A stretch of 64,000 nucleotides of DNA, from assembly GCF_000585335.1 (NCBI RefSeq), contig NZ_KK073872.1, forward strand, positions 3,339,283 to 3,403,282, in the 5' to 3' direction. Below the pieces are notes generated by a model. The model was given only the letters and a program-made list of their open reading frames with translations. It had not been told where the DNA came from and searched no databases. The translations under genes and the position numbers were made by a program. This stretch comes from Cloacibacillus evryensis DSM 19522 (GTDB lineage: Bacteria > Synergistota > Synergistia > Synergistales > Synergistaceae). The stretch's first letter is position 1. Every line of letters begins with the position of its first letter. Below, piece by piece: positions 3,748 to 41,241 of the stretch.

Positions 3748-3857
3748 TGTGCATTGTGATATTGATGGCTGCCATTTGCATTGCACTTGAGATCTATGCG
3801 ATCGCGCAGAAGCAAGCGAAGCCGAATAGGATGAATGAGATGTATAAAAATACATAA
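3747..3857 (+). CDS. possible 36-residue membrane microprotein
   Basis: A short frame whose ATG overlaps the stop of the EamA transporter by one base (TAATG), which would allow translational re-initiation. It encodes one hydrophobic stretch (MCIVILMAAICIALEIYAI) and a basic tail. Nothing beyond the overlap and the hydrophobicity supports it, and no ribosome site of its own is evident. It may be chance. Confidence 0.25.
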   Translation: MCIVILMAAICIALEIYAIAQKQAKPNRMNEMYKNT

Positions 3858-3974
3858 TTATCAGAGGTGGCTCCGACATAGGCAAAATAAAATCCTATCC
3901 ATAATAGAACAAAAGATATTTTCAAAAAGTTTTTTCTAGTTATTTTCATTAGCTATTACCTCCATTTTCTGGTG

Positions 3975-5525: not shown

Positions 5526-5617
5526 ATATATTCATATCCTTTTTGTTGTTTTTGGGTGATATTAAAGGTAAATAAATATGATAACTAAATAGATTTTAGG
5601 ATTTGAAAAATTAAAAA

Positions 5618-5692
5618 GCTCTCGTGCCATAGGCTCCAAAATGCTACAGCTCATATTTTTGTTATAATTCAGAATTTCTTTGGCACGAGAGC
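5618..5692 (-). terminator. long-loop hairpin between TRAP permease and lctP-like gene
   Basis: Perfect 12-bp arms GCTCTCGTGCCA (5618-5629) and TGGCACGAGAGC (5681-5692) with a 51-base loop. On the minus strand the hairpin is followed by a T-rich run (complement of the A-rich 5603-5617), as expected for termination after the TRAP permease gene. The loop is unusually long for an intrinsic terminator. Confidence 0.5.
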
Positions 5693-5702
5693 GTAATTGC
5701 AA

Positions 5703-7559: not shown

Positions 7560-7622
7560 GATGCCCAAACCTCTCCTTTTTTAATTTAAAAAGTTAATAT
7601 ATCTTTTGATATGGAAAATAAA

Positions 7623-7662
7623 AAGGGATGTTATTTACGCTGAGCCATTTATAACATCCCTT
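7623..7662 (-). terminator. attenuator-like hairpin between binding protein and permease
   Basis: Perfect 12-bp inverted repeat AAGGGATGTTAT (7623-7634) and ATAACATCCCTT (7651-7662), followed on the minus strand by a T-rich run. It lies between the TAXI binding-protein gene and the permease gene. A partial terminator here would give more binding protein than permease, as is common for transport operons. Confidence 0.65.
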
Positions 7663-7682
7663 AAAGACAATATTTTTATTCT

Positions 7683-8678
7683 TTATTTAATCTGACTTAT
7701 TTCCTTGAAATACATTACTGCTCCTGGATGAAGAGGAACACCGCCTAGAAATTCGGGAGATGCGGCTTTTTTGAGATCAAAATCATTAAATGATTTGTGA
7801 CCTTTTGTCAGATCCTCTTTGTGTTCCATAATCGATTTTGTGATCTTATAAGCAGTCTCGTCATCCATACTGGAATGTACGATGAGCATAGTCGAAGCCA
7901 TGACGGAAGGGATAGCTTGATCTTGATTTTTGAATACACCTGCTGGAAGTTTATCCGGGACTAGTCCATACTTTGTCTCCATAAGCTTCTGCTGTTCTGG
8001 GACTAATCCAAGGAATTTCATTTTCCCGGTCAATGCGATTTCGGAAACTACGGGATGACCTTTATTAACGAACAGAACAAAAGCATCGCAACGCCCATCC
8101 TTAAAAGCGTTTATGATATTTTCTGTATCCGTGAATTCAACAGAACCGCCCCATTTCTTTATATCATCATAACCAACTTCACCGCATTCTAGCAAACGCG
8201 ATGTTAGCAATTCTGCACCAGAGCCCTTTGCCTGGGTATATAGACGAATTTTAGCGTTGGCTTTTAGCAATTCTTCCCATGTTTTATACGGAAGATCTCC
8301 TCTTACCATAACTCCCGCGTAATATCTGTCCATATTACCCAAAAGACATCTTATATTTTTGCTTTTTTGAAACCCTGAAATCCCTCTCATGGCTGCTGCA
8401 CAGTCAACATTCAATGGCAACGCTAATTCCATCTTTTCATTTTTTTCTATAAGTTTGACATTTCCTACAGACCCCGCAAGCGGTACCGCTTCTGCCACAA
8501 TACCCCCAGTATATTTTGTCACGATATCTGCAGCAGTCGCTCCCTGTACGTAATTAGAGGTACCAAGTCTATTAGAACCCACTCTAATGCGTTTTTCGGC
8601 AAAAGCTTGACTGCTAATTGTAATAAGAGCAAAGGTTAACATTGTTATGATACTAATAAGCTTACTCCATTTTTTCAT
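7683..8678 (-). CDS. TAXI family TRAP transporter solute-binding protein
   Basis: 331 residues with an N-terminal signal peptide (basic MKKWSK, hydrophobic core, cleavage near SSQAFA-EKR). The mature part opens with RIRVGSNRLGTSNYVQGATAADIV, the usual TAXI opening. It would capture the solute outside the membrane and deliver it to the fused permease encoded next. A good GGAGG site lies 8 bases before the ATG. It is co-directional with the upstream amidohydrolase and separated from the permease by an attenuator-like hairpin. Confidence 0.9.
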   Translation of the reverse strand: MKKWSKLISIITMLTFALITISSQAFAEKRIRVGSNRLGTSNYVQGATAADIVTKYTGGIVAEAVPLAGSVGNVKLIEKNEKMELALPLNVDCAAAMRGISGFQKSKNIRCLLGNMDRYYAGVMVRGDLPYKTWEELLKANAKIRLYTQAKGSGAELLTSRLLECGEVGYDDIKKWGGSVEFTDTENIINAFKDGRCDAFVLFVNKGHPVVSEIALTGKMKFLGLVPEQQKLMETKYGLVPDKLPAGVFKNQDQAIPSVMASTMLIVHSSMDDETAYKITKSIMEHKEDLTKGHKSFNDFDLKKAASPEFLGGVPLHPGAVMYFKEISQIK

Positions 8679-8730
8679 TTATATGCCCTCCTCGGTCCAA
8701 TATAAGAATGTAATATTTATTCTGGATATA

Positions 8731-9951
8731 CTAAAGACTTTTTTTAAAAAATTCTCCGTTCTTCATGATAACGTGTATTTTGTCCCTATTTTGAATTATT
8801 TGGGGGTCTTTTAGCGGATCGCCTTCAACCAATAAGAGGTCTGCCAATTTCCCTTCTTCAAGCGTGCCGATTTTGTCTTGTTTTTTTAGTAGTTCGGCAT
8901 TTCTTTTAGTCATTGCCAACAATGCGTTCATTGACCCCATAACCTTCGCTTTTAACTCGAGTTCTGTTCCTTTAAATGGCTGGCAATCTCCGACAAGGTC
9001 AGACCCGGATGCTATTTTAAGACCTGCTTTGTACGCAATATCCAACGCTTCAAATGCATGATCTGCTACGTATTTCATTTTACGCATAAAATAATCTGGG
9101 AATCCCATAGAGTCCCCCTTTCTGCTCATTATGTAATATGTCGATATAGTCGGCACAAGCCAGCACTCTTTGCTTTTTATCAGGGCGGCTGTCTTTGCGT
9201 CCAGGAAATTACCATGCTCTATACTGTATACTCCAGCATTGGCACATAGAGTCATACTTCTATTTGAGTAGCAATGTCCAATGGTGTCCTTGCCGGCTGC
9301 ATCTGCTTCCTCGACTGCGGCTTTTATTTCTTCAATAGAAAACTGAGAAGATTCCGGTTCATCTGATTCGCTTGAACACCCGCCCCCTGTCATCAATTTA
9401 ATGTGGTCTGCTCCTCGCCGAAGTTGTTCTCTTGCCATTTTTCTCACTTGATCAACGCCGTCGCACACAACTCCTTCCAGTGGATCCTCAATGGGTTCTC
9501 TTATTTCGACAGAGAGTCGATGGTCGGAGTGTCCGCCAGTCATTGTAAGAATATGGTTGCATACAGTCATTCTTGGTCCTATGGTAATGCCACAGTTTAT
9601 TGCTTCTCGAAATCCTGCGTCTACGCCCCCACAGTCTCTTACAGTTGTAAATCCTTGGAATAAGGTATCTTCTAAAATTTTGAAAGCCTTCATATACCTC
9701 ATTCCAATGAAATAGCGCCGCGATTTTTCCACAGAGTTATTTTGATAACTTGATGCATGTATATGTGCATCAATCAATCCAGGCATCAATGTCATGCCCT
9801 TACAATCCACTTTTTCTGTTACATGAATATTAGGTGGAGTCTGTGAAAAACCAATCTCTTTAATACAGCCGCTATCAACTAATAGCCATGCTGGATACTG
9901 TGGCTCTCGTCCTGTACAATCCAATAACGTCGCATTATAGAACAGTGTCAC
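8731..9951 (-). CDS. metal-dependent amidohydrolase (imidazolonepropionase/prolidase-like)
   Basis: 406-residue TIM-barrel amidohydrolase. The metal-binding HxH lies in PGLIDAHIH (H63, H65); further ligand candidates are the lysine in HIKLMTGGG, the histidines in TIGHCYS and SIEHGNF, and the aspartate in ASGSDLVGD. This set matches the imidazolonepropionase/Xaa-Pro dipeptidase-type branch. GTG start with AGGAGG about 7 bases upstream. There is no signal peptide, so it is cytoplasmic. It leads the operon with the TAXI-TRAP system, suggesting it hydrolyses the imported compound. It is paralogous to the enzyme at 34278-35507, with HxH at the same residue numbers. Confidence 0.85.
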   Translation of the reverse strand: MTLFYNATLLDCTGREPQYPAWLLVDSGCIKEIGFSQTPPNIHVTEKVDCKGMTLMPGLIDAHIHASSYQNNSVEKSRRYFIGMRYMKAFKILEDTLFQGFTTVRDCGGVDAGFREAINCGITIGPRMTVCNHILTMTGGHSDHRLSVEIREPIEDPLEGVVCDGVDQVRKMAREQLRRGADHIKLMTGGGCSSESDEPESSQFSIEEIKAAVEEADAAGKDTIGHCYSNRSMTLCANAGVYSIEHGNFLDAKTAALIKSKECWLVPTISTYYIMSRKGDSMGFPDYFMRKMKYVADHAFEALDIAYKAGLKIASGSDLVGDCQPFKGTELELKAKVMGSMNALLAMTKRNAELLKKQDKIGTLEEGKLADLLLVEGDPLKDPQIIQNRDKIHVIMKNGEFFKKSL

Positions 9952-10027
9952 TATATCGCCTCCTAAAATGTCAAAAAACTATGATGCAATAAATAATTTA
10001 AGTTCAGTGAAAAGATTATATAGAATT

Positions 10028-10042
10028 GACATATCATATGTC
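10028..10042. promoter_or_regulatory. 15-bp palindromic operator, LysR-type
   Basis: GACATATCATATGTC is a perfect palindrome around one central base. It lies in the divergent region between the amidohydrolase operon and the LysR gene, 57 bp before the regulator start. Position and dyad symmetry fit a LysR-type recognition site controlling both directions. Confidence 0.6.
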
Positions 10043-10098
10043 TAAGACTAATATATTTATAATTAATATAGGCGCAAAGTTATAAATCGGAGGAATAG

Positions 10099-11037
10099 AT
10101 GATGAGTCTCAGAGAACAGGAATACATGACGACGGTGGAAAAATGCGGTAGTATTTCGAAAGCTGCAGATTTACTCCATATCTCTCAACCTTCCCTTAGT
10201 CAATATATTCAAAAAATTGAAAGAAGGACAGGTTATCAAATTTTCGACAGAAGTAATAAGATTCTTTCTCTGACGGTTGCTGGTGTGGAGTATATGAATA
10301 CATGTCATGAAATATTGCGATTGAGTAAAGAACTTATAAAAAAAATTGACGATATTTCTGAAATAAAGAGGGGGCGCATAGTAATAGGAGTAACATCTCA
10401 TCGTAGCCCTTATTTGTTGCCAGAAATACTTTTCAATTTTCAAAGGAAGTATCCTGGTGTCAATTTAGACATCATAGAAAAATTATCTACAGATGAATTA
10501 GAGGATATAACTCTGCGCGGGGAAGTTGATCTTTTTTTTACGACCACCCCGTTAAAAAATAAAGGTTTTTCAATAGAACATTTATCGGATGATATCCTAT
10601 CCTTAGTAATTCCGCCTGATAGTTACATTTCAGGAAACATGCAAAAAATGACGTTTGATGAGATTGGCGATTTTATTTGTTGTTCTTTATGTAACATGAA
10701 GTTTGTTTTATCGCCGCAAACCATGAAATTAGGCAGGTTAATACATAAATTATTTGAAAGGATAAACTTTGAGCCGCAGGTTTTTTTTGAAACATATAAC
10801 ATGGATACTGGAATTGCAATGGCAAGCAAGGGATTGTGTGCCTCTTTCACTTTTTCAACGTTAAAACCGCAAAAGGACTATGGAGAGGTTCCTCTTTATA
10901 TACCAATCATGGATAAAGATTTTACTGTATCTCTTGTAATAGCCTTTCCTCGACAACGCTATTTGAGTAGGGCGGCGTCTGCGTTTATTCAGATGAGCAG
11001 GGAGATACTGGGGCAGCGTAACCTATTAAATTGTTAG
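10099..11037 (+). CDS. LysR family transcriptional regulator
   Basis: 312 residues. The N-terminal winged helix-turn-helix is clear (ITKAADLLHIS-like: GSISKAADLLHISQPSLSQ, residues about 13-31), followed by the usual linker and a periplasmic-binding-protein-like effector domain. GGAGG sits just before the double ATG. It is divergent from the amidohydrolase/TAXI-TRAP/LctP cluster, with a perfect palindrome between them, so it probably activates that cluster in response to its substrate (inference). The gene is AT-rich, like the neighbouring cluster. Confidence 0.9.
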   Translation: MMSLREQEYMTTVEKCGSISKAADLLHISQPSLSQYIQKIERRTGYQIFDRSNKILSLTVAGVEYMNTCHEILRLSKELIKKIDDISEIKRGRIVIGVTSHRSPYLLPEILFNFQRKYPGVNLDIIEKLSTDELEDITLRGEVDLFFTTTPLKNKGFSIEHLSDDILSLVIPPDSYISGNMQKMTFDEIGDFICCSLCNMKFVLSPQTMKLGRLIHKLFERINFEPQVFFETYNMDTGIAMASKGLCASFTFSTLKPQKDYGEVPLYIPIMDKDFTVSLVIAFPRQRYLSRAASAFIQMSREILGQRNLLNC

Positions 11038-11271
11038 ATATAACATCGTGCTTCACCTAATCGTTGCTAAAAAGGCCACTCGGTTAGGTGCCCTAAAATT
11101 CCGCAGGATCCACCAAATAGATATTGCCGCCTATCTCCTAACACGGCGAAATTTTTCCGTGAAACGGAAAGATAAACTAAATTTCTGACATAATTTGGTA
11201 TCTTACTGAAAAAATATTTGAATTTTGGCAAACAGAAAGCTATGCATAGCCAGGTTAAATCCACAGCTAAC
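11038..11271. other. gene-free stretch before the IS5-like element
   Basis: No credible gene. It holds two weak hairpins: CACCTAA/TTAGGTG arms spanning 11052-11087, which may lie in the 3' end of the LysR transcript, and TTTCCGT-GAA-ACGGAAA at 11154-11170. Neither has a convincing T run. Confidence 0.4.
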
Positions 11272-12167
11272 TAGTCTCCGCTGAAAAACTCAAAGAATCC
11301 AGTAATAGCCTGCATAAATCTTTAAATTTGAAGTAAAATATACGTAGAAAATATACAGTTATCAGGAGAAAACTACGATAATGAAGCCAAAGACCACAGA
11401 AGAACCTCAGGATAGATTATTTCAAGACAGGCTCGAAAACATGATCAATATGGACCATGAACTCGTAAAACTGGGCGATAAAATAAACTGGAAGACCTTC
11501 GAGAGTACATTAGGCGAGGTCTACATTGCGAACAAAGGTCGCCCCGGGCTTCCGACAAGGCTTATGGTCGGCCTTCACTATCTCAAAGGTCTTCGCGATC
11601 TTTCAGACGAAGCGACAGTTATGGAATTCCTAGAAAATCCATATTGGCAGTATTTTTGATGAACATACTAAGTTCGATTACGGAAATCAAAGATTTCCTA
11701 TCTCACTTATGCGGAATGGAATACTTTATGACAGAGCTGCCGCTGGACTCCAGCTCAATGACGCGATGGCGCAAGAGGACCGGTCCCAAAGGTTTTGAAA
11801 CGATGCTCAAAGAAAGCCTTGAGACGGCGATGCGCATGTGAAATGCCTTAAACCGAAAGACCTTGGCTGTGTCATCGTCGACACGACGGTACAGGAAAAC
11901 GGCATAACATTTCCTACGGACCCCAAGCTCTACGCCAAGGGCATAGAATTATTGGTACGCGAGGCGAAACGAGCTGGAATGAAACTCAAACGGACCTACG
12001 CCAGGACGGTGCCTGCCCTTCAGCGCGCGAGCTGCAGGAATTTCCTGAAAGGCCGGATCGGAGATGAAATCAACGCTCTGATGGCAAGCTTTGCCCATAA
12101 CCGGAAAAAGACCCTGAACCGCCTCAGGATTTTTGTTCAAATTTATCTAAAGGCAGAAAACCCGGCG
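11272..12167 (+). mobile_element. IS5-family element, copy 1, internally deleted and right-truncated
   Basis: Shares its left end (TAGTCTCCGCTGAAAAAC) and transposase sequence with the copy at 30696-31878 in the same orientation. Relative to that copy it lacks roughly 220 bp in the middle (junction near 12031, after GCGCGCGAGCT) and loses similarity after about 12167, so the right terminal repeat is gone. It cannot move by itself. With copy 2 it brackets the BREX island. Confidence 0.75.
11381..12167 (+). pseudogene. IS5-family transposase remnant, copy 1
   Basis: Transposase in pieces. The first frame (11381-11659) carries the IS5 N-terminal motif KGRPGLPTRLMVGLHYLK and ends at YWQYF. A second frame continues as CGMEYFMTELPLDSSSMTRWRKR after 53 extra bases (11658-11710). 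A third starts with the GTG at 11838 (KPKDLGCVIVDTTVQE, containing the first catalytic aspartate region). A fourth join at about 12031 skips the catalytic middle and reads NFLKGRIGDEINALMASFAHN. The first two frame changes are both -1 and are shared with copy 2. Function is lost. Confidence 0.8.
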
Positions 12168-12232
12168 TATACACATTTTGTAACATCACAGGAAATGAGA
12201 AAAATATATAAACTTACAAAAACAGAATAGAC

Positions 12233-12285
12233 AGTGGTGTAGGTGGCAGTACGGGTAGGGGTAGGTAGTGTAGGTGTAGGGGGTA
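12233..12285. repeat. G/T-rich degenerate simple repeat
   Basis: A stretch of repeated GTAGG/GTGTAGG units lies between the truncated IS5-like copy and the IS256 remnant. It probably marks the junction of two mobile elements. No gene or terminal repeat could be assigned. Confidence 0.4.
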
Positions 12286-12286
12286 C

Positions 12287-13414
12287 TCAAGTCGGGGATG
12301 CGGACATTTTTCCGGACCGATTTATGCTGCATAACAATGCTTCCGATTTAATAAAATTTGTGATTTCGGGGTGTTTCAGTATGAAATACCCCAACGCTTT
12401 ACCACAATCTTTGATGGGGACGGTCCACTTCTTAGATGCCTCGAGTATACCCAATGTAATTATCTTGAGGGCCGACTCGTCGCTGGGGAAGATACGCCGA
12501 TTGCGTGTCAGCTTACGAAGCGACATGTTGAGCGACTCTATCGTATTGGTCGTATAGATGATGTTCCGTATTTCGGCAGGGTAACTGAATATTGTGTTAA
12601 GATTTCCCCATTTACTCTCCCATTGCCTTGGTATCAGCGGATATACGGAGCCCCACTTCTCTTTAAAGCACTGAAGCGCATCAAGGCCAGCTGCTTCTGT
12701 CGGGGCGTTGTAGATGCTCTTCAGGTCATGCGATACAGTCAGAAGGCGGTCCCTTCGTTTTCCGTTATCCAGGCGCCGAGCAGTTCTTTACGGCTTTCGC
12801 TGTTGAGCCCGAGCGCGATCTGCACTGCTTTGTTGATGACTTTGCGGTCGCTGTGTATCTTTACCACCACAGCGTCAAGCCAGACTATGGGGTACATTGG
12901 GTCCAGCATCCTGTTTTGCCACTGCCGGGCGTCGTCCTCCATTGCTCCGGCAATTTCGGCCACAAGCGTCGCTGAGACGTCTACGCTGTAGAGCTCTTTG
13001 ATCGTCGAGGATGTCGCGTGTGGTCATGCCTTTAGCGTAAAGGGCCATTACCGCCTTATCCAGAGGCCCGATTCGATGCTGCCGCTTGGGGACGATTTGA
13101 GGTTGGAATGTGCTTTTGCGATCGCGAGGGGTCTCTATCTTTATTTCTCCGAAGTCTCCCTTCACTGTTTTGCACCCTTTGCCGTTGCGGGAATTCCCTG
13201 ATTCTCGGCCGCTTTCCGGGTTGTATTCATCGTCAAGATGGTAGTCCATCTCGGCGTCCATTATCCGTTCGATTGCGCGTTTGGTAAGCTGTTTTAGGAT
13301 CCCATCTTCTCCAAGCAGGTCGCTCGGTTCCTTGTAATCTTTCAGCAGCTCGTCGATAAGTGCATCGCTTATCTTGTTCGGCTGTTCCTCTGTGTTTACT
13401 TTGCTCGTTTTCAT
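12287..13414 (-). pseudogene. IS256-family transposase, full length with two frameshifts
   Basis: Read on the minus strand, the N-terminal part (MKTSKVNTEEQPNKISDAL through GMTTRDI) is typical of IS256/MutA transposases. A single-base frame change near 12970 switches to STIKELYSVDVSATLVAEI, the stretch through VWLDAVVVKIHSD follows, and a second change near 12738 switches to TVSHDLKSIYNAPTEAAGLD and then NTIESLNMSLRKLTRNRRI to the end. Apart from these two shifts the length (about 375 codons) is nearly that of the family, so inactivation is recent. Terminal inverted repeats were not identified with confidence. Confidence 0.82.
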
Positions 13415-32810: not shown

Positions 32811-34226
32811 TTAGAAGGGCCCGAGCTTGGTGAATGTCGCGATGAGCAGTCCGACCGCGCCGATTCCCATCAGCATCGCGTAGAGCGGCAGCACCCACTT
32901 GAAGTAGGTCGAAAATGGCACTTTCGCGACGCCGATGTAGACCACGAGCGCGCCCATCGTCGGGATGACCATGTTTGTAAGCCCGTCTCCAAGCTGGAAA
33001 GCCATGACCGCGGTCTGGCGCGTGAGTCCGACTACGTCCGCAAGCGGGGCCATGATCGGCATCGTTACCGCCGCCTGACCGGAGCCGGATGGGATGAAGA
33101 AGTTGATGATCGACTGTATTACCAGCATTCCGAGTGCCGAGAGGGAAGAGGGTATCTGTTTGAGGGGGATGGAGAGGCCGTAAATGACGCTGTCAAGGAT
33201 ATTCCCCTTTGTCAGTACGACGGATACCGCGCGCGCGAAGCCGATGCAGATAACCCCGACAAATACGCCGGCGCAGGCCTTCCCCATTATTTCGCAGATC
33301 CGTTCGTTATTGAATCCCGCGACTATCCCCGCGATGATGCCGGAGATGAGCCAGAGCGCTCCGATCTCGGCGAAGCTCCACTTCCAGAGCATCGGCCCGA
33401 CCATCTGCAAACCGATGGTCGCGAGCAGCATTATCATCAGGAGCTTCTGGCGTCCGGTCATTTTTTCCTTCTGCAGTGCGGCGATATCGATATCCGCCGC
33501 CGAAGGGTTGGTAAAGCCGGTGACGCTGGCGGAAGGATCTGCCTTTACCTTCGCGGCGTACCGCAGGACGAACCAAAAGGTGACGACCATCATCACAAGC
33601 CACACCGCGACGCGGAAAGTCATCGCAGAATAGACCGGCAGTCCGGCTATGCCCTGCGCCACGGCGACGGTGTAAACGTTTATCGGCCCGTACGCGAACG
33701 CCGCGAAGGTCGGGATCATCGCGATCGCGAGCCCGGTCATGACGTCGCAGCCGCAGGCTAGGGCGAGGGCGATCGTCATCGGGACGAACGGGATATGGAG
33801 CTCGAAGGCTCCCATCGCGCCGCGGACGGCGAAAAATGCCATCAGCGCGCCCATCACTAGAAGGTAATTGCCGCGGCAGACCTTGATGATCCAGCCGACC
33901 ATCTTATGAAGAGTCCCGCTTTCCGTATAAACGTCCGTCGCCGCGATGGTGAACCATATCATCGACATAATGGCCATCGAGGCGGTGAGCCCGTCGATGA
34001 TGCAGACGAACCAGTTGAAAGGTGTGACCGGCGAGGGTTCGACGAAGTGGAATGTCGCCGGATCGATGACCTGGCGCCCTGCCACCTCCACCCTGTCATA
34101 CACGCCCGCCGGTACGATGTACGTCATGATTCCGGCCATTATGAGACAGAGGAGGATGATCGCCCACACATGGGGAACGCGGAAACCTTTCGTCTCGATC
34201 TCTGGTGATTGTGCTTTATTGCTCAT
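32811..34226 (-). CDS. YfcC family permease
   Basis: 471-residue polytopic membrane protein of the YfcC/DcuC-like family, with about 11-12 helices and the conserved hairpin motif FFIPSGSGQAAVTMPIMAP plus LGDGLTNMVIPTMG. Family members move basic amino acids, dipeptides or dicarboxylates. GGAGGG lies 9 bases upstream of the ATG. It lies between the amidohydrolase and the GntR gene and presumably imports the substrate, or exports the product, of that enzyme. Confidence 0.85.
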   Translation of the reverse strand: MSNKAQSPEIETKGFRVPHVWAIILLCLIMAGIMTYIVPAGVYDRVEVAGRQVIDPATFHFVEPSPVTPFNWFVCIIDGLTASMAIMSMIWFTIAATDVYTESGTLHKMVGWIIKVCRGNYLLVMGALMAFFAVRGAMGAFELHIPFVPMTIALALACGCDVMTGLAIAMIPTFAAFAYGPINVYTVAVAQGIAGLPVYSAMTFRVAVWLVMMVVTFWFVLRYAAKVKADPSASVTGFTNPSAADIDIAALQKEKMTGRQKLLMIMLLATIGLQMVGPMLWKWSFAEIGALWLISGIIAGIVAGFNNERICEIMGKACAGVFVGVICIGFARAVSVVLTKGNILDSVIYGLSIPLKQIPSSLSALGMLVIQSIINFFIPSGSGQAAVTMPIMAPLADVVGLTRQTAVMAFQLGDGLTNMVIPTMGALVVYIGVAKVPFSTYFKWVLPLYAMLMGIGAVGLLIATFTKLGPF

Positions 34227-34277
34227 TTTTTGTTATCCCTCCATACGAAAAAATATAAGAATCAGCGCCGCCCTGTT

Positions 34278-35507
34278 TTAAACGAGGATGTTCTTGTGGA
34301 CGCCGCCGCCCTGCATGATCAGCAGCAGGTTTTTCCTGTGGTCCTTAAAAAGGTCGATATTATCAAGCGGGCTGCCGTTGACCACGAGGATGTCCGCGAG
34401 TTTGCCCACCTCAAGGGTCCCCGTTTCTTCTTCCACCTTCAGGACCTTCGCGTTGGTCTTTGTGAAAGCGACGATCGCCCCCATCGGGCCCATCGCCTTG
34501 GCCTGGTACGCGATGGCTCCCGAAGCGTACTTTGTGTTTTCGCCGGTAAGATCTGTTCCACCTCCTATTGGTATCCCGGCCTCCATGGCGTTCCGTATCG
34601 CCTCATATCCGCGTTCGCAGACGGAGACAAACTTGTCGTATATAAACTTTGAGATGATATCGCGGCTTTTTTCGATAACGATCTCATAGGTTATCTGCGT
34701 CGGTATGATGAAAGCTCCCCTTTGCGCGACGACGGCGGCCGTCTCCCGGGTCATCAGGTTCGCGTGCTCGATCGTGCGGATTCCCGCGTCCGCGCTGAGC
34801 AGGATGCTCCTGTTTGAATAGCTGTGGGAGGCGACGTAGCTTCCCACCGACTCGGCCACGTCCACGGCGGCCTTCAGCTCTTCAAGGGTGTATTGCGAAG
34901 TTTCCGGCCCCTGCGTGGGGCTTGCGCAGCCGCCGCCGCACATCACTTTGATGAAATCGGCGCCGCGCCTGATATTCTCGCGGGCCGTCCGCAGCATCTC
35001 CGGCACGCCGTCGGCAAGAACGGAGCGGAATCCCATATAGGGCTCCGAATAGGGACGGGTCTCCGAAGCGACGCGGTCATCGCCGTGGCCTCCGGTCTGG
35101 GCGATCGCCGCGCCGCATACCTTCAGCCGCGGCCCGGCGGCGTATCCGCGTTCCACCGCTTCTCTGAAACCGGCGTCGGCGCCTCCCGTGTCGCGCGCGT
35201 ACGTATAACCCTGATCAAGCGCCTCGCGGAGATTCTTGAACATTCTTGCCGCCATCAGGCCGGGTGCGTTTCTGCGGGAGAGGTTGATCACCTCTATCTC
35301 GACGAGGCCGAGATGCATATGCGCGTCGATCAGGCCGGGCATGACGGTATTGCCCTTGCAGTCGAAGACTTCGTCCGCGTAAGGCGCGTTGATGCTCCCG
35401 CCTATCTCTTTGATACGGTCGTCTTCCACGAGGAGCGAAACGTTTTCCTTCACTTCGCCGCCGTTCCCGTCAATAAGATTTGCGTTTTTGAAAAGCTTGT
35501 ATGTCAT
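34278..35507 (-). CDS. metal-dependent amidohydrolase (imidazolonepropionase/prolidase-like)
   Basis: 409 residues. HxH in PGLIDAHMH (H63, H65), lysine in DFIKVMCGGG, histidines in VASHSYSNR and TIEHANL, and an aspartate in GGGTDLTGE reproduce the metal site of the imidazolonepropionase-like branch. It is paralogous to the enzyme at 8731-9951: the two share the GGGC-x(6)-E-x-SQ-pattern and SYSNRS/CYSNRS blocks. It leads a three-gene set with a YfcC permease and a GntR regulator, so it likely hydrolyses a cyclic amide or small peptide taken up by that permease. Exact substrate unknown. Confidence 0.85.
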   Translation of the reverse strand: MTYKLFKNANLIDGNGGEVKENVSLLVEDDRIKEIGGSINAPYADEVFDCKGNTVMPGLIDAHMHLGLVEIEVINLSRRNAPGLMAARMFKNLREALDQGYTYARDTGGADAGFREAVERGYAAGPRLKVCGAAIAQTGGHGDDRVASETRPYSEPYMGFRSVLADGVPEMLRTARENIRRGADFIKVMCGGGCASPTQGPETSQYTLEELKAAVDVAESVGSYVASHSYSNRSILLSADAGIRTIEHANLMTRETAAVVAQRGAFIIPTQITYEIVIEKSRDIISKFIYDKFVSVCERGYEAIRNAMEAGIPIGGGTDLTGENTKYASGAIAYQAKAMGPMGAIVAFTKTNAKVLKVEEETGTLEVGKLADILVVNGSPLDNIDLFKDHRKNLLLIMQGGGVHKNILV

Positions 35508-35801: not shown

Positions 35802-36599
35802 TTAAAAAAATACCGCCGCCCTGATCCCCCACCGCCCGCATCGTTCTTTTATCTCCCCGCGCAGCCTGTGCCAGTAATCCTTTCGCCCCCGGCGGTAGAT
35901 CTCGTCGTAGAGTCCCGCCAGCTCCGGACGCAGCGCGGCGGTCATGGCGAGGAGGCGTTCCCTGTTCTGGCTGCGGAAGTTCAGCGAGTCGAAATTCATC
36001 TCCGACACGTAGGGGGCTGCCGCCTCTATTATCGCGGCGCAGTCGGTGATCGCGGGAAATATCGGCGCCGCCATCACCGCTGTGTCGACGCCGGCCTCGC
36101 GCAGTTCGCGCAGCGCCGCGAGCTTTTTCAGCGGGGCGGCGGCGTGAGGCTCCATTTTTCGGCGAAAGCCGTCGTCCAGCGAGCTGAAGGAGAAGATCAC
36201 CTTCACGCGGGGAAACTCTTTGAAGAGGTCGATGTCGCGCGTTACAAGCGCCGACTTTGTGAGGATCGTGATCCCGGGCTGTGCCGGCAGCAGCGAACGG
36301 AGGATGTCGCGCGTCGCTTGCGAGCGTTCCTCATAGGGGTTGTAGGCGTCGGTCATCGAGCTTAGAAGTATCTCTTTGTGGAATATCCTGGCGGGATCGA
36401 CCGGAGCCGTCGGGTGTTTCACGTCAAGAAAGGTCCCCCACGGTTCGGTACGGCCGCTCCTCGCCCGCGTGATGCAGGCGGCATAACAGTAAACGCAGCC
36501 GTGCGGACAGCCGACGTAGGGATTTATCACAAAATCCGCGCCAAGTTTTGTCGGCGAGAGGAGACTTCTTACCTTTACATGCCTTACGACGACATTCAT
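35802..36599 (-). CDS. SPL-family radical SAM protein
   Basis: 265 residues. The radical-SAM iron-sulfur motif is C31-x3-C35-x2-C38 (GCPHGCVYCYAAC), followed by a conserved kinase-like order of motifs for the spore-photoproduct-lyase-related/Rv2578c family (ILLSSMTDAYNPYEE and ITILTKSALVTRDIDL). The reaction is unknown; relatives repair or modify nucleic acid or are uncharacterised. The ATG at 36599 overlaps the LysR stop as ATGA and has GGAG upstream, so the gene is coupled to that regulator. An ATG 18 bases earlier is possible but lies further inside the upstream gene. Confidence 0.82.
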   Translation of the reverse strand: MNVVVRHVKVRSLLSPTKLGADFVINPYVGCPHGCVYCYAACITRARSGRTEPWGTFLDVKHPTAPVDPARIFHKEILLSSMTDAYNPYEERSQATRDILRSLLPAQPGITILTKSALVTRDIDLFKEFPRVKVIFSFSSLDDGFRRKMEPHAAAPLKKLAALRELREAGVDTAVMAAPIFPAITDCAAIIEAAAPYVSEMNFDSLNFRSQNRERLLAMTAALRPELAGLYDEIYRRGRKDYWHRLRGEIKERCGRWGIRAAVFF

Positions 36600-37483
36600 C
36601 TTTCTCCGCGCGGCCATTCTCCGGCGTTATGTTTATAGAGCAGAAAATCTATAAAGGAGTCAAGGAGCGCGCCCTCTCCGCCGGCGTCGCTTTTTATCAG
36701 CCAGGTGTTCCTCTCCGCCGGTTTCCCGCTTTTATCGTACATGGGGATGTGATAAAACTCTCCCGCGGGGTCGAGGTCTTCCACCATCGATATCCCGTAT
36801 CCCAGGCCGCGCATCACCATCTCGCGGCAGATGGACAGGCTTCCGACCCGGTAGCTTTCGTTGGGGGCGACGCTGAAATGTTCGTTCCACCATCTGTTTA
36901 CGATGGAACTGCTGGGGGCGCTCATCGGGTGCGAGATCATCGGCAGCAGCGGCAGGTCCATAAGATCGATCGGGCTTTTGGAAAAGATATAGCACTGATC
37001 TTTTTTCAGGAGTTTTTTGGATCCGTGAAAGCTGAAATCGCCTCTTATGATTCCCGCCTCCGCCTCGTTCGATCTTACGAGTTTCAGGACGTTGCCGCTC
37101 AGCGTCGTGATAACGTCGAAGGCCACGTTCGCGTGAAGCGCCTTGAACTGCTGCAGCAGGGCCGGCAGCGTGTATTCGCCGTATGAATTCGCGACGGCGA
37201 TCTTTATGCGCCCGGAGCTTCCTCGCTCTATCGCGCCGGCCTTTTCCCTCATCTCGCCCATAAAATTGAGCAGCTTCTCCCCCTGCGCCGCAAGGTATTC
37301 GCCCTGCGGGGTGAATACTACGCCCTTGTTGCTGCGCAGGAGTATCGTCGTCCGGAACTCTTTCTCGATCTGCTGGATGCGCCGGGTCAGCGTCGGCTGG
37401 GTAATAAAGAGCCTTTCCGCGGCTTTCGTCATGTTTGGCGTACGATACAGCTCCGTCAAAAGTCTGAAGTCTTCTTCTCTCAA
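36596..37483 (-). CDS. LysR family transcriptional regulator
   Basis: About 295 residues with an N-terminal helix-turn-helix (MTKAAERLFITQPTLTRRIQQIE) and a LysR substrate-binding domain. I prefer the TTG at 37483: GGAGAGAG stands just before it, and a TATAAT on the minus strand (37512-37517) would overlap the earlier ATG at 37513. It is divergent from the aconitase-lactonase-RraA operon, so it is the probable regulator of that operon, and its stop overlaps the radical SAM gene. Confidence 0.85.
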   Translation of the reverse strand: MREEDFRLLTELYRTPNMTKAAERLFITQPTLTRRIQQIEKEFRTTILLRSNKGVVFTPQGEYLAAQGEKLLNFMGEMREKAGAIERGSSGRIKIAVANSYGEYTLPALLQQFKALHANVAFDVITTLSGNVLKLVRSNEAEAGIIRGDFSFHGSKKLLKKDQCYIFSKSPIDLMDLPLLPMISHPMSAPSSSIVNRWWNEHFSVAPNESYRVGSLSICREMVMRGLGYGISMVEDLDPAGEFYHIPMYDKSGKPAERNTWLIKSDAGGEGALLDSFIDFLLYKHNAGEWPRGER

Positions 37484-37511
37484 CCTTCTCTCTCCTTTCC
37501 CGGCCATTTCC

Positions 37512-37517
37512 ATTATA
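37512..37517 (-). promoter_or_regulatory. -10 element for the LysR gene
   Basis: TATAAT on the minus strand, 29 bases before the proposed TTG start. No clear -35. It helps decide the regulator start. Confidence 0.4.
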
Positions 37518-37580
37518 CAGCTTTCGTATGGAGGACGATGAAATACGGTAATTTTACAGCCGGATGTTCCTCATTTAAAG

Positions 37581-37605
37581 TTATGTGCATCAAGAAATCG
37601 CATAA
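37581..37605. promoter_or_regulatory. LysR-type dyad upstream of the aconitase operon
   Basis: TTATGTG (37581-37587) and CGCATAA (37599-37605) form an inverted repeat with 6 of 7 positions matching across 11 bases, the spacing typical of LysR sites. It lies 25-49 bp before the aconitase start, between the divergent genes. Confidence 0.45.
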
Positions 37606-37629
37606 GAACATATATAGGGGGCATAAGGC

Positions 37630-39579
37630 ATGGGCGAGAATATTACCCGGAAAATAATCGGAAGCCATCTGCTGGGCGGAGTTATGAGGGCGGGGGAGGA
37701 GATAGCGATCAGGATCGACCAGACGCTGACGCACGACGTCACGGGGACGCAGGCCTATCTTGCCTTCGAGACCCTCGGGATAGAGAGGGTGAGGACGGAG
37801 AAATCCGTCAGCTACATAGACCACAATCTGCTCTACGCCGACAATAAAAATCCCGACGATCACCTCTATTTACAGACGATCGCCAAGAAATACGGCATTT
37901 TTCTCTCAAAGGCGGGAAACGGCATCTGCCACACCGTCCACTTTGAGAGGTTCGGCGTTCCGGGAAAGACACTGCTGGGTTCGGACAGCCACACGCCGAC
38001 CGGCGGCGCGATAGGGATGCTCGCGATCGGCGCGGGCGGCCTCGACGTCGCCATGGCGATGGCCGGCGAGCCGATATATATAAAGATGCCCGCCGTCGTC
38101 CGCGTCGAGCTCAAGGGGAAGCTGCGCCCCGGCGTCTCCGCGAAGGACGTGATCCTTGAGATGCTGCGCCGGTACACCGTAAAGGGCGGCCTCGGCAGGG
38201 TCTTTGAGTATGGCGGCGAGGGGCTTTCGTGCCTCAATATAAGAGACCGCTCGACGATCGCGAACATGGGCGCCGAGATGGGGGCGACTACCTCGGTATT
38301 TCCCGGCGACGAAGCCGTGCGCGAATTTTTCGCGGCGCAGGGGAGGGCGGATCAATGGAAGGAGCTGCTTCCCGACCCGGACGCCGGATACGACGAAAGA
38401 GCGGAGATAGACCTCTCGGAGCTGGAGCCGCTCGTCGCGATGCCCGACATGCCCGACAAGGTGGCGAAGGTCTCGGAGCTTGGCCGCGTGAAGGTCGGAC
38501 AGGTCTTTATCGGCAGTTGTACGAACGCATCTTATACCGACTTTGTCAAAGCGGCGAGGATACTTGACGGGAGGATCGCCCACGAGGACGTCAGCTTCGT
38601 CGTCGCGCCTGGAAGCCGGCAGATATTCTGCGAGCTGCTGCGCGACGGCGTCATCGGCAGGCTGGTGGAGAGCGGCGCGCGCGTGCTTGAATGCGGCTGC
38701 GGCCCATGCGTCGGCATCGGGCAGGCCCCCGCGACGCACGGAGTCTCGCTGCGCACCTCGAACCGCAACTTCAGGGGGCGCGGCGGCACGCTCGACGCCT
38801 CGTTGTATCTGGCGAGCCCGGAGGTCGCTGCGGCCACGGCCCTCACCGGATATATCACCGCGCCCTCCGAGGTGTGCGACTGCTCCGTGCTGGAAAGCAT
38901 AAGGGAACCGGAGACGTTCGCCGTCGACGACCGCCTCATCCTGACGCCGCCCGCGGAGGGCGGCGCGGTCGAGATAATACGCGGTCCCAACATCAAACCG
39001 ATGCCGGTAAATACCCCGATGCCGGAGGAATATTCGCTTAGGGTCTCCGCCGTGCGGGGGGACAACGTCACCACGGACGACATAATACCGGCCAACGCCC
39101 AATTCTCTGCGCTGCGCTCGAACATTCCCGCGATCAGCGAAATAACCTTCGGGCGTGTCGACCCCGGTTTCGCCGCCCGCTGCCGCGAATATGGCCCGAG
39201 CATCATCGTCGGCGGAGAGAACTACGGGCAGGGCTCGAGCCGCGAGCACGCGGCGATCGCGCCGATGTACCTGGGCGTCAAGATCGTACTCGCCAAGAGC
39301 ATGGCGCGGATACATAAAAACAACCTCATAAATCACGGCGTGCTACCGCTCGTTTTTAAAGACCCGCGCGACCTTTCCAAATTCTCCGAGGGGGACGAGA
39401 TCACAGTCGCCGCCCCCGCGGAGCAGCTTCGGCGGCGCAGCGTCACGCTGCTTAACAAAACGACGGGGGAGAAGGCCGAGGCGCGCGCCGAGCTTACCGA
39501 CCGCGAGGCGGAGATCCTCATCGCCGGCGGGCAGCTGCGCATGGCCCGGAGCCGCCGCCTGGCCGGACCGGAAAAATGA
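37630..39579 (+). CDS. aconitase-family hydratase
   Basis: 649-residue single-chain aconitase/homoaconitase-type enzyme. The [4Fe-4S] ligands are visible: C297 in GSCTNASY and C357-x2-C360 in CGCGPCVG. The substrate loop GSDSHTPTGGAIGMLAIGAGG and the swivelling C-terminal domain with GENYGQGSSREHA and IHKNNLINHGVLPL are intact. The family interconverts citrate and isocitrate, or hydrates similar tri- and dicarboxylates. It may be the housekeeping aconitase, but it is coupled to a lactonase (ATGA overlap) and an RraA-type aldolase, which is not usual for a TCA-cycle enzyme, so a special hydratase role is possible. Confidence 0.88.
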   Translation: MGENITRKIIGSHLLGGVMRAGEEIAIRIDQTLTHDVTGTQAYLAFETLGIERVRTEKSVSYIDHNLLYADNKNPDDHLYLQTIAKKYGIFLSKAGNGICHTVHFERFGVPGKTLLGSDSHTPTGGAIGMLAIGAGGLDVAMAMAGEPIYIKMPAVVRVELKGKLRPGVSAKDVILEMLRRYTVKGGLGRVFEYGGEGLSCLNIRDRSTIANMGAEMGATTSVFPGDEAVREFFAAQGRADQWKELLPDPDAGYDERAEIDLSELEPLVAMPDMPDKVAKVSELGRVKVGQVFIGSCTNASYTDFVKAARILDGRIAHEDVSFVVAPGSRQIFCELLRDGVIGRLVESGARVLECGCGPCVGIGQAPATHGVSLRTSNRNFRGRGGTLDASLYLASPEVAAATALTGYITAPSEVCDCSVLESIREPETFAVDDRLILTPPAEGGAVEIIRGPNIKPMPVNTPMPEEYSLRVSAVRGDNVTTDDIIPANAQFSALRSNIPAISEITFGRVDPGFAARCREYGPSIIVGGENYGQGSSREHAAIAPMYLGVKIVLAKSMARIHKNNLINHGVLPLVFKDPRDLSKFSEGDEITVAAPAEQLRRRSVTLLNKTTGEKAEARAELTDREAEILIAGGQLRMARSRRLAGPEK

Positions 39580-40634
39580 CGATGAAATTTGCCTATGTGG
39601 GATGCAGGACGACGAAGGAGAGGAACGCGCGCGGCAGAGGGCTCAAGGTCTACCGCGTAGACGGTCTTGGGCGCTGGGAGGAGACGCAGCTCGTCAAAGG
39701 GCTGGAAAACCCCTCATACCTGGCTTTTGACCGGGAGGAAAAATTCCTCTACTGCGTACACGGCGACAAAGACTATGTGAGCTCATTCAAAATAGACGAA
39801 GAGAGCGGAGGGCTCACGCAGATCGGGCGCGCGGCGGCGGGAGGGAAAAATCCCGTCTTCATCTCCGTCGACAAGGGCAACAGGCGGTGCTTCGTCGCCA
39901 CGCTGCAGGGCGGTAAGGTATCCACGCTGGAACGCCTGCCGGACGGGAGTCTTTCGGAGCCGGTACATGAGGCGGCGATCCCGGGCATCGAAGCCGGTTC
40001 CGTATCTTACCCGCACCAGTGTCTCCAGGATGTCGAGGGAAACTTTCTCATCGTGCCGATTCAGGGCAGAAAGACCGGCACGGGCGCGCTCAACCTTTAC
40101 CGTATCGAAAAAGACGGCTCCCTCTCGCTCAGCGACCGCCGGGAGGCGCGTCAGCACGACGAACCGCGCCATTTCGCGTTTCACCCGAGCAACCGCTGCG
40201 GCTGTCTCATCAACGAAAAGGGGAACTGCGTCACCTGCTTTGACTTCGACGCCGCCGCCGGTAAGATCACGCCGAAGCAGATACTGAGTTCGCTGCCCGA
40301 ATACTACACCGGCGAGGGACAGGCGAGCGCGATGCTGATCCACCCGGGAGGCCGCTTCGCTTACGCCTCTAACCGGATTCATGACAGCATAGCCTCGTAC
40401 TCTATCGACCCTCATACCGGATACCTGCGGCTGCTGGGCTTTACCGACGCGCTCGGAAAAACGCCGCGCTTCATGACATTCGACGAAAAGGGCGAAAAAC
40501 TTTACGTTGCGAACGAAGACAGCGACACTATCGTTGAATTCGCGATCGAGGCCGACAGCGGCCGGCCGGTCTTTACGGGCCGTACCGTCGCCGCGGAAAG
40601 CCCCGTCTGCGTTATCTTTACAAAAGAGAGGTAA
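39576..40634 (+). CDS. beta-propeller lactonase family protein
   Basis: 352 residues with repeated seven-bladed propeller motifs (SYLAFDREEKFLYCVHGD, FISVDKGNRRCFVATLQGGKV, HFAFHPSNRCGCLINE, AMLIHPGGRFAYASNR, FMTFDEKGEKLYVANED). The family includes 6-phosphogluconolactonase of the Pgl/YbhE type and muconate-cycloisomerase-like lactonases. There is no signal peptide, so it is cytoplasmic. Its ATG overlaps the aconitase stop (ATGA) and the RraA-like gene starts four bases after its stop, so the three act together. No pentose-phosphate gene is nearby, favouring a lactone other than 6-phosphogluconolactone. Confidence 0.8.
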   Translation: MTMKFAYVGCRTTKERNARGRGLKVYRVDGLGRWEETQLVKGLENPSYLAFDREEKFLYCVHGDKDYVSSFKIDEESGGLTQIGRAAAGGKNPVFISVDKGNRRCFVATLQGGKVSTLERLPDGSLSEPVHEAAIPGIEAGSVSYPHQCLQDVEGNFLIVPIQGRKTGTGALNLYRIEKDGSLSLSDRREARQHDEPRHFAFHPSNRCGCLINEKGNCVTCFDFDAAAGKITPKQILSSLPEYYTGEGQASAMLIHPGGRFAYASNRIHDSIASYSIDPHTGYLRLLGFTDALGKTPRFMTFDEKGEKLYVANEDSDTIVEFAIEADSGRPVFTGRTVAAESPVCVIFTKER

Positions 40635-40638
40635 TTTC

Positions 40639-41241
40639 ATGACGCATCCCAAAATATCCCCGGAACTGATCGCGCGCGCCGCCGCCCTCTCCACCCCGGA
40701 ACTCTGCGACGGCATGGAGCCATTCCGCGCCATGCATTACGAGATAAAGCCGCTTGTGGGAGATCGTGTCGTCGGGCAGGCCTTTACCGCCGACCTGCCG
40801 ATGGGCTCCTCGGAGCTGGCAGCCCGCATGATAGACGAGGCCGGGGCGGGCGACATCCTTGTCCTCGCGGGGCGCGGGGACTGCCGCGGCTCGCTGTGGG
40901 GAGACTACAAGAGCCTCTGCGCCTCGCTGAAAAAGATCGGCGGCGTCGTGATAGACGGCGCGCTGCGCGACATCGCAGGCTGCCGCGAAATCGGGCTGCC
41001 GGTATTTGCCCGGGCAGTCGTCTGCGGCGCGGTGAAGAAGAGCGATTACGGCGCGCTGGGCGTGACGGTCTCCTGCGGCGGCGTCTCCGTGCGCCCCGGC
41101 GACCTGATCGCGGGCGACGCTAACGGCGTCGTCGTGCTGCCCTATGAGGAAGAAGAACTGGCGAAGATACTCGACCGCGCGGAAAAGAAAAAAGCGGCGC
41201 AGGAAGAAAAAGAGCGGAAACTGCTGTCCGCGGAAATATAG
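40639..41241 (+). CDS. RraA-like aldolase/oxaloacetate decarboxylase family protein
   Basis: 200 residues with the RraA/HMG-aldolase fold: N-terminal LSTPELCDGM, the G-x-x-R-D motif in VIDGALRDIAGC (substrate arginine and metal-binding aspartate), and VRPGDLIAGDANGVVVLP. Members cleave 4-hydroxy-4-methyl-2-oxoglutarate or 4-carboxy-4-hydroxy-2-oxoadipate, or decarboxylate oxaloacetate. The ATG at 40639 has an AGAGAGGT site 6 bases upstream and follows the lactonase stop closely. The metal-coordinating and substrate residues favour an enzyme rather than the RNase E inhibitor RraA. Confidence 0.82.
   Translation: MTHPKISPELIARAAALSTPELCDGMEPFRAMHYEIKPLVGDRVVGQAFTADLPMGSSELAARMIDEAGAGDILVLAGRGDCRGSLWGDYKSLCASLKKIGGVVIDGALRDIAGCREIGLPVFARAVVCGAVKKSDYGALGVTVSCGGVSVRPGDLIAGDANGVVVLPYEEEELAKILDRAEKKKAAQEEKERKLLSAEI

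Follow-up and report, generated by a model that had tools for sequence, protein, structure and literature searches.

A conserved operon of Cloacibacillus evryensis that joins an aconitase-type hydratase, a lactonase and an RraA-type aldolase, and its possible role in the use of a citrate-related acid

What does a protein that scores as an aconitase do in one operon with a lactonase and an aldolase? The question is raised by three genes in a 64,000-nucleotide stretch of Cloacibacillus evryensis DSM 19522 (contig NZ_KK073872.1, positions 3,339,283 to 3,403,282), referred to here as the window, which comes from a single-contig genome of 3,488,464 bases. The genes encode an aconitase-family hydratase (ACN), a β-propeller lactonase (LAC) and an RraA-type aldolase/decarboxylase (RraA). 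In ACN, His takes the place of the Gln of typical aconitases, and in the proteins compared it is the His forms, and not the Gln forms, that stand beside LAC. LAC loci with only non-His aconitases have PrpF in addition. The operon suggests an unrecognised route for using a plant acid related to citrate. In the general reading that we propose, which is as likely to be wrong as right, the operon serves as a peripheral cassette for the catabolism of a hydroxy-tricarboxylic acid found in γ-lactone form; to judge from the sequences, the leading candidate substrate would be 2-hydroxycitrate (garcinia or hibiscus lactone). The locus comprises the following features.

36596–37513, minus strand: LysR-type regulator, divergent; the nearest NCBIfam model is CcpC, at 176.4 bits, below the cut-off of 400.
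37514–37629, no strand: intergenic region between the LysR gene and ACN; weak sigma-70-like matches only, and no dyad arms over 6 nucleotides.
37630–39579, plus strand: ACN, aconitase-family hydratase of 649 residues, assigned by family score; site mapping puts His35 at the pig Gln72 site.
39576–40634, plus strand: LAC, PF10282 seven-bladed β-propeller lactonase of 352 residues; an alternative ATG is at 39582.
40639–41241, plus strand: RraA, RraA-type class II aldolase/decarboxylase of 200 residues, assigned by PF03737 and the motif D-x20-R-D.

A preliminary description of this DNA had the three genes co-directional and overlapping or nearly touching, and they are: the ACN stop codon and the LAC ATG share ATGA at 39576–39579, an overlap of 4 nucleotides, and the RraA ATG at 40639 comes 4 nucleotides after the LAC stop codon (40632–40634). 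This RraA start, with AGAGAGG upstream, is the best choice, and the TTG at 40507 given in the list of open reading frames (ORFs) was set aside. The divergent LysR gene was also correctly placed. The dyad described between it and ACN was not found, the region 37480–37660 holding 6-nucleotide palindromes only. CcpC, the model nearest to the regulator, is citrate-responsive in Bacillus.

ACN scores above both aconitate hydratase cut-offs, with 897.7 bits for NF005558 (cut-off 612) and 823.9 bits for TIGR01342 (cut-off 719.15). Its sites were mapped on pig mitochondrial aconitase with a site list and numbering that we assume to be correct, and in which we take Gln72 to be a substrate contact. The catalytic Ser/Arg/His/Asp set and the three Fe-S cysteines of the mitochondrial enzyme are all present: Cys297, Cys357 and Cys360 and Arg379, Arg384, Arg496 and Arg538 are retained, as are the equivalents of pig Ser642, Ser643, Arg644, Arg447, Arg452 and Arg580. 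Because the cluster ligands and the equivalents of Arg447, Arg452, Arg580 and Arg644 are retained, ACN should bind a tricarboxylate-like substrate. The residue at the Gln72 site is His35; Gln is typical of aconitate hydratases at this position and is not demanded by the family model. A passage of one report names Cys358, Cys421, Cys424, His147, Asp165, His167 and Ser642 as residues of mitochondrial aconitase (PMC8184944), and no title tying Gln72 to aconitase was among the literature matches listed. In the genomes searched, the closest relatives of ACN are from Veillonella (69% identical) and Sedimentibacter (68%), and six others of its own family are at 51–53%; this pattern suggests gene transfer. 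In a genome of the same genus (G013), neither LAC nor an ACN of this class was present, the best ACN match being at 3.2e-69.

The His residue goes with LAC. In the ACN650 set, which consists of 106 distinct proteins of 146 after identical cores were dropped and includes the window, the Gln72 site is Gln in 69 proteins, His in 33, Pro in 2 and Ser in 2; 99 of the 106 agree at all 19 remaining sites (catalytic, Fe-S and substrate). Of the 33 His forms, 18 have LAC within 1.6 kb; of the 69 Gln forms, none has. The corresponding counts are 6 and 0 for RraA, and 10 and 56 for a gene of the isocitrate dehydrogenase (IDH) type. Flanks in the ACN search were about 1.5 kb, and absence of LAC there means that none is close by. 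In a separate count, all 20 LAC-linked ACN650 proteins in which the site is covered have His. Because part of the set had been chosen through LAC, the sample gathered through ACN first was counted apart, and among its 86 loci LAC is beside 10 of 17 His forms and 0 of 66 Gln forms. Three genomes (G186, G190 and G193) each hold a LAC-linked His form together with a Gln form, and in Veillonella (L214) the Gln form adjoins PrpF and the His form adjoins LAC, a carrier and RraA. No description of the altered aconitase site with a lactonase link was found among the listed matches from the open-access literature, an absence that is weak evidence.

His at this site also recurs. In a quick tree of the ACN650 set (Gln72 column left out, SH-aLRT support only, midpoint root), one His clade of 28 proteins (support 98) includes ACN of the window, with some members linked to LAC and others not; apart from it, a His clade of 3 (support 100) is LAC-linked (L072, L085 and L151, with LAC further along in the last). 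A second class of aconitase has the same residue, in that 17 AcnA-class proteins of LAC loci have HDTT at the place of QDFT in E. coli AcnA. In the AcnA-class tree (35 proteins; 15 of 16 chosen genomes searched), His occurs in a proteobacterial group of 9, whose connection to L108 runs over long branches, and also in a Bacilli pair whose sister (support 100) is the Gln paralogue encoded in the same genome (G201); in this pair the direction of change was likely Gln to His. With the filter used, the Gln72 column is one of five common to both ACN650 His groups as against the Gln forms and one of three convergent columns in the AcnA class.

Seen from the lactonase, the association is wide. LAC relatives are present in 12 of 185 genomes of the phylum, and holders in the same order include records titled as Synergistaceae or Synergistales metagenome-assembled genomes (MAGs). 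With one genome scanned per species, 102 LAC relatives were obtained, of which the best 80 were used; less 8 repeats, and with ten loci of the phylum and the window added, they gave 83 LAC loci, over which 7 kb was searched in six frames. An aconitase was found at 49 of these, with His in 36 and without it in 10; at the remaining three (L057, L076 with a 269-residue YbhJ-class piece, and L087) the pieces do not cover the site. ACN, LAC and RraA occur together within 7 kb at nine of the 83 loci, all picked through LAC: the window and L055 of Synergistota, L072 of Faecalispora, L080 of Clostridium transplantifaecale, L085 of Anaerosphaera, L091 of Veillonella ratti, L108 of a Pseudogulbenkiania MAG, L110 of Ammoniphilus and L117 of Bacillus FJAT-29790. 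They represent Synergistota, Bacillota and one member of Pseudomonadota, so the trio is conserved in three phyla, more than chance would give, and is not unique to this genome. Judging by their names, several LAC-holding organisms are presumably anaerobes. In a plasmid search no match among the 20 of 26 records listed covers 80% of the query; most are aconitase pieces of 60–90% identity, and one short match, from Rhizobium NXC24, falls at the start of LAC. No paper on this gene set was among the listed matches from the open-access literature, which again is weak evidence.

The aconitases of LAC loci that lack His are either AcnD-like (QDLL, 7 loci) or YbhJ-like (YDNT, 4 loci, L077 included), and PrpF forms a complement to the His form. 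It lies within 7 kb of LAC at all ten loci with only a non-His aconitase and at two of the 36 His loci, both of which have a second, non-His aconitase (the YDNT form in L077, and in L091 a Gln form beside PrpF). There is no PrpF within 7 kb of the LAC of the window. For the methylcitrate system, a passage of PMC5690661 gives the proposal that AcnD makes 4-methyl-cis-aconitate, which PrpF converts to 2-methyl-cis-aconitate. By analogy, a substituted citrate would require PrpF when handled by an AcnD-like enzyme and would do without it if the enzyme abstracts the proton on the substituted arm.

LAC belongs to the PF10282 Lactonase family (239.9 bits, cut-off 21.7), and its assignment as a plain 6-phosphogluconolactonase was rejected (NF008258, 105.4 of 370 bits). 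The AlphaFold model, with a mean pLDDT of 95.9, matches PpgL (6igb, Z 47.0) and YbhE/Pgl (1ri6, Z 45.5) and, more distantly, the 3-carboxymuconate lactonising enzyme (CMLE) of Neurospora (1jof, Z 40.3). Residues Arg11, Arg16, His62, Asp64, His147, Arg198, His199, Glu214, Arg267 and Arg298 are kept in 99–100% of the 72 LACs aligned; the positive charge of this conserved set would suit a poly-acid substrate. The genome encodes a second LAC, 46% identical, at C1:1306500–1321500 (L061), whose partners are a MatC carrier, an IlvD-type dehydratase, a reductase, an IolO-like epimerase, an LDH2-type dehydrogenase and a LysR protein, and which perhaps serves a polyhydroxy-acid route. In E. coli K-12 (L152, 795000–808000, at 3587–10765 of the segment), pgl is followed by ybhD (LysR), ybhH (PrpF-like), ybhI (a putative tricarboxylate carrier) and ybhJ (aconitase-like), a run of the same families as in the clusters of LAC, PrpF, carrier and aconitase.

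The match of LAC to 1jof, a tricarboxylate lactonising enzyme, also fits a cassette that would feed trans-aconitate into the citrate pathway, with LAC isomerising or lactonising and ACN hydrating. LAC clusters are found in Acidaminococcus, a genus that ferments trans-aconitate according to a passage of PMC3035267; PMC11495376 describes aconitate isomerases of the PrpF family that act in trans-aconitate use and gives Cloacibacillus porcorum as a predicted user. The trio of the window, however, has no PrpF, and the co-occurrence of LAC and PrpF in sister clusters means that LAC is no simple substitute for the isomerase. The role of RraA would be left unexplained as well, and we consider trans-aconitate use quite improbable.

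RraA passes PF03737 at 123.4 bits and retains the aldolase metal-site motif D-x20-R-D, which we take to be the form of this motif in 4-carboxy-4-hydroxy-2-oxoadipate (CHA) aldolase. All ten RraA proteins first collected have [DE]-x20-R-D (two are from L091, and that of L108 is only 162 residues long). In alignments the best solved relative is the CHA aldolase 3noj, and the scores are below the CHA aldolase cut-offs (94.1 of 179 bits for NF006731, 89 of 304.5 for TIGR02798). Passages of PMC5065237 state that most homologues of HMG/CHA aldolase hold one of two motifs and that the enzyme decarboxylates oxaloacetate as well.

This aldolase kinship is a link to the route first proposed for the operon, in which LAC opens 2-pyrone-4,6-dicarboxylate or CHA lactone, ACN hydrates 4-oxalomesaconate, and RraA cleaves CHA to pyruvate and oxaloacetate. 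In outline that proposal stands, as a tricarboxylate route with lactonase, hydratase and RraA encoded in a coupled, conserved operon. The specific pathway through pyrone dicarboxylate, oxalomesaconate and CHA is not supported; it fits less well than a lactone-forming hydroxy-tricarboxylate, and we regard it as very improbable. It would agree with the retained D-x20-R-D motif, with 3noj as best solved relative and with the presence in sister clusters of PrpF, a relative of oxalomesaconate tautomerase. RraA is nevertheless under the CHA-aldolase cut-offs, and the classified partners of LAC, which include citrate lyase, IDH-type enzymes, PrpD, IlvD and DUF1537, are mostly enzymes of citrate type. 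None of the LAC neighbours classified was recognised as a ring-cleavage gene, most neighbours being unclassified and such families not having been searched for there. A search of the genome with PF02900 (LigB) only gave one match, at C1:2617738–2618502 (L153), in an ORF of 481 residues from its ATG; by eye, this ORF and the radical SAM gene that follows it resemble an AMMECR1/MEMO/radical SAM set, and the ORF does not look like a dioxygenase.

For a hydroxy-tricarboxylate that forms a lactone, the reactions that we infer are as follows. (i) LAC would open the lactone to give hydroxycitrate. (ii) The His-aconitase would dehydrate (or isomerise) the acid, the C3 hydroxyl leaving together with a proton from the arm that bears the hydroxyl, to yield the enol of oxalosuccinate. 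(iii) Oxalosuccinate would be decarboxylated to 2-oxoglutarate by RraA or, in clusters that lack it, by an IDH-type enzyme; in more general form, RraA would decarboxylate or cleave the resulting keto acid. LysR would regulate the cassette. In sister clusters the AcnD-like or YbhJ-like non-His aconitase would work on the other arm, and PrpF would shift the double bond. Hydroxycitrate forms a γ-lactone, and IDH decarboxylates oxalosuccinate. In its full form the proposal is that these clusters are the missing genes of bacterial breakdown of hydroxycitrate and its lactones, that two aconitase classes have been re-specialised as hydroxycitrate dehydratases by the same change, that oxalosuccinate passes to 2-oxoglutarate through RraA or IDH-type enzymes, and that the PrpF lineages reach the same product. 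We offer this full form, and with it hydroxycitrate as the substrate, tentatively and as somewhat unlikely. As a variant, hydroxyisocitrate could be converted by an IDH-type step to 4-hydroxy-2-oxoglutarate, which RraA would cleave by an aldol reaction to pyruvate and glyoxylate. In this variant ACN, IDH and RraA would act together; the three are side by side in L206 and L207. According to parts of a review (PMC4945632), interconversion of hydroxycitrate and 2-oxoglutarate has been reported in Micrococcus, the enzyme being described there only by size, Km and pH optimum, and IDH forms 4-hydroxy-2-oxoglutarate from Garcinia hydroxycitrate.

Several observations weigh against a dedicated hydroxy-tricarboxylate cassette. 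No carrier gene adjoins the operon of the window. RraA is near only 9 of the 36 His-aconitase loci; it is near none of the ten loci with only non-His aconitases, and near one of the 34 loci without aconitase (L116), where CitE and CitF are present. The RraAs of LAC loci are only 30–40% identical to that of the window. LAC also joins CitDEF, DUF1537 and IlvD modules, which could work on something other than a hydroxy-tricarboxylate. Within 1.6 kb, 15 of the 33 His ACN650 proteins have no LAC, and two His singletons (L178 and L271) are beside IDH and not LAC. LeuC-type large subunits have His at the site in 21 of the 25 that align there, and the YbhJ-class aconitase of this genome has it too, so that His does not forbid citrate, and His as proof of a new substrate was rejected. 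Because outer families carry His and the root is a midpoint root, the direction of change in ACN650 is not fixed. An independent-pairs test, with three pairs, of which one goes the same way and two show no difference, has no power and no significance.

The other aconitase of the genome bears on this point. The preliminary description counted as refutation that ACN be the only aconitase of the genome with normal citrate activity and that the trio not be conserved; both halves fail, the trio being conserved and a second aconitase being present. A family search of the genome added three ORFs to ACN, an aconitase-like one at 726 kb and two of LeuC length at 2.98 Mb. The 726-kb protein has 781 residues and is of the YbhJ class (NF008503, 1209.9 bits, cut-off 641). 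It is followed by a canonical NADP-dependent IDH (668.8 bits, cut-off 335) and CitDEF in one run (L070, C1:719000–734000, at 6877–13335), with CitD and CitF above their cut-offs and CitE at 322.9 of 443.4 bits. This gene run suggests that the YbhJ class is able to work as aconitase. The CitE of LAC clusters scores 328 bits, close to the 323 of the one here, and a guess that it is unusual was given up for this reason.

Another reading is scavenging of isocitrate lactone or of citrate and isocitrate, in which LAC would open isocitric lactone, ACN would be an ordinary aconitase and RraA would be an oxaloacetate decarboxylase acting after citrate lyase. IDH-type and CitEF partners occur at other LAC loci, one of them with RraA (L116), and the carriers of MatC_N/CitMHS type at many LAC loci, the CcpC-like regulator, the carboxylate-binding Arg residues, all retained in ACN, and the His of a YbhJ-class aconitase beside canonical IDH and CitDEF would all agree with it. 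Such scavenging does not explain why LAC accompanies His forms and not Gln forms, or why PrpF comes with LAC-linked non-His forms, and the genome already has an aconitase–IDH–citrate lyase cluster. The IDH-type partners that were scored (L075 and both of L206) are also under every IDH cut-off shown, unlike the IDH of that cluster. On balance we think it unlikely.

The range of LAC partners includes, besides those carriers, PrpF, IDH-type dehydrogenases, CitE/CitF, PrpD, DUF1537 kinases and, in L061, an IlvD-type dehydratase. CitE, CitF and MatC are near LAC with no aconitase within 7 kb at L059, L060, L062, L063, L086, L092, L104, L116 and L122, and at these nine loci the same lactonase subfamily is serving a citrate-lyase-type module. 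L076 and L206 (G204:C49, Hungatella) are parts of one long array, which starts with LAC, MatC, PrpF, LysR, an IDH-type protein and a class II aldolase and continues with a DUF1537 kinase, nitroreductase-like and racemase-like proteins, a His-aconitase, RraA, an IDH-type protein, a YbhJ-class aconitase and LysR. One of the two IDH-type proteins of this array best matches homoisocitrate dehydrogenase (271 of 540 bits), and LeuC-type relatives have His at the Gln72 site. Homocitrate forms a γ-lactone, and a homocitrate-type acid could be used if its lactone were opened and the His-aconitase acted as a homoaconitase ahead of homoisocitrate-type dehydrogenases. Such a route has no evident role for RraA, PrpF, PrpD or CitDEF and is the least probable of the alternatives, with very little to be expected of it. 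Elsewhere in the window, on the minus strand, a carrier of the DcuC/YfcC family adjoins a Xaa-Pro dipeptidase-like amidohydrolase (32811–35507; possibly peptide or amino-acid use), and a radical SAM protein resembles 'mobile pair protein B' (35802–36617; 208.8 bits, cut-off 410).

Aconitase is a textbook enzyme, and its annotation is nearly always accepted at face value. Because one residue, recurrent in two classes, marks a lactonase-linked sub-group, a number of proteins annotated as aconitate hydratase may bear the wrong name. Should hydroxycitrate prove to be the substrate, genes would be assigned to an activity known from the Micrococcus enzyme. The mechanism can be tested directly, because His-aconitase and PrpF occur in complementary fashion.

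The operon and its parts compare with known systems as follows. Like the aconitases of NF005558 and TIGR01342, ACN passes the family score and retains the Fe-S cysteines and the Ser and Arg sites, but it has His for Gln72 and adjoins LAC and RraA, whereas the Gln-form aconitases have an IDH-type gene within 1.6 kb in 56 of 69 cases. LAC has the seven-bladed fold of PpgL, YbhE/Pgl and Neurospora CMLE but is a subfamily of its own among the PF10282 lactonases, with a conserved N terminus, GCRTT-x2-R-N-A-R-G. RraA shares the D-x20-R-D motif and the fold family with HMG/CHA aldolase 3NOJ and the RraA family and is well under both CHA aldolase cut-offs. The tar operon (TarA, TarB and TarR), as presented in a section of PMC11495376, likewise has a regulator, a carrier and a tricarboxylate-converting enzyme in one small operon, and its PrpF-family isomerase is also found in sister LAC clusters; the window, unlike tar, has no isomerase and has a lactonase, an aconitase and RraA. 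The AcnD/PrpF system of 2-methylcitrate, for which a substituted citrate is the natural type of substrate, resembles the sister LAC clusters in having an AcnD-like aconitase with PrpF. It differs in that the AcnD-like protein of L133 is under the AcnD cut-off (1235 of 1420 bits) and in that clusters of the window type have a His-aconitase and no PrpF.

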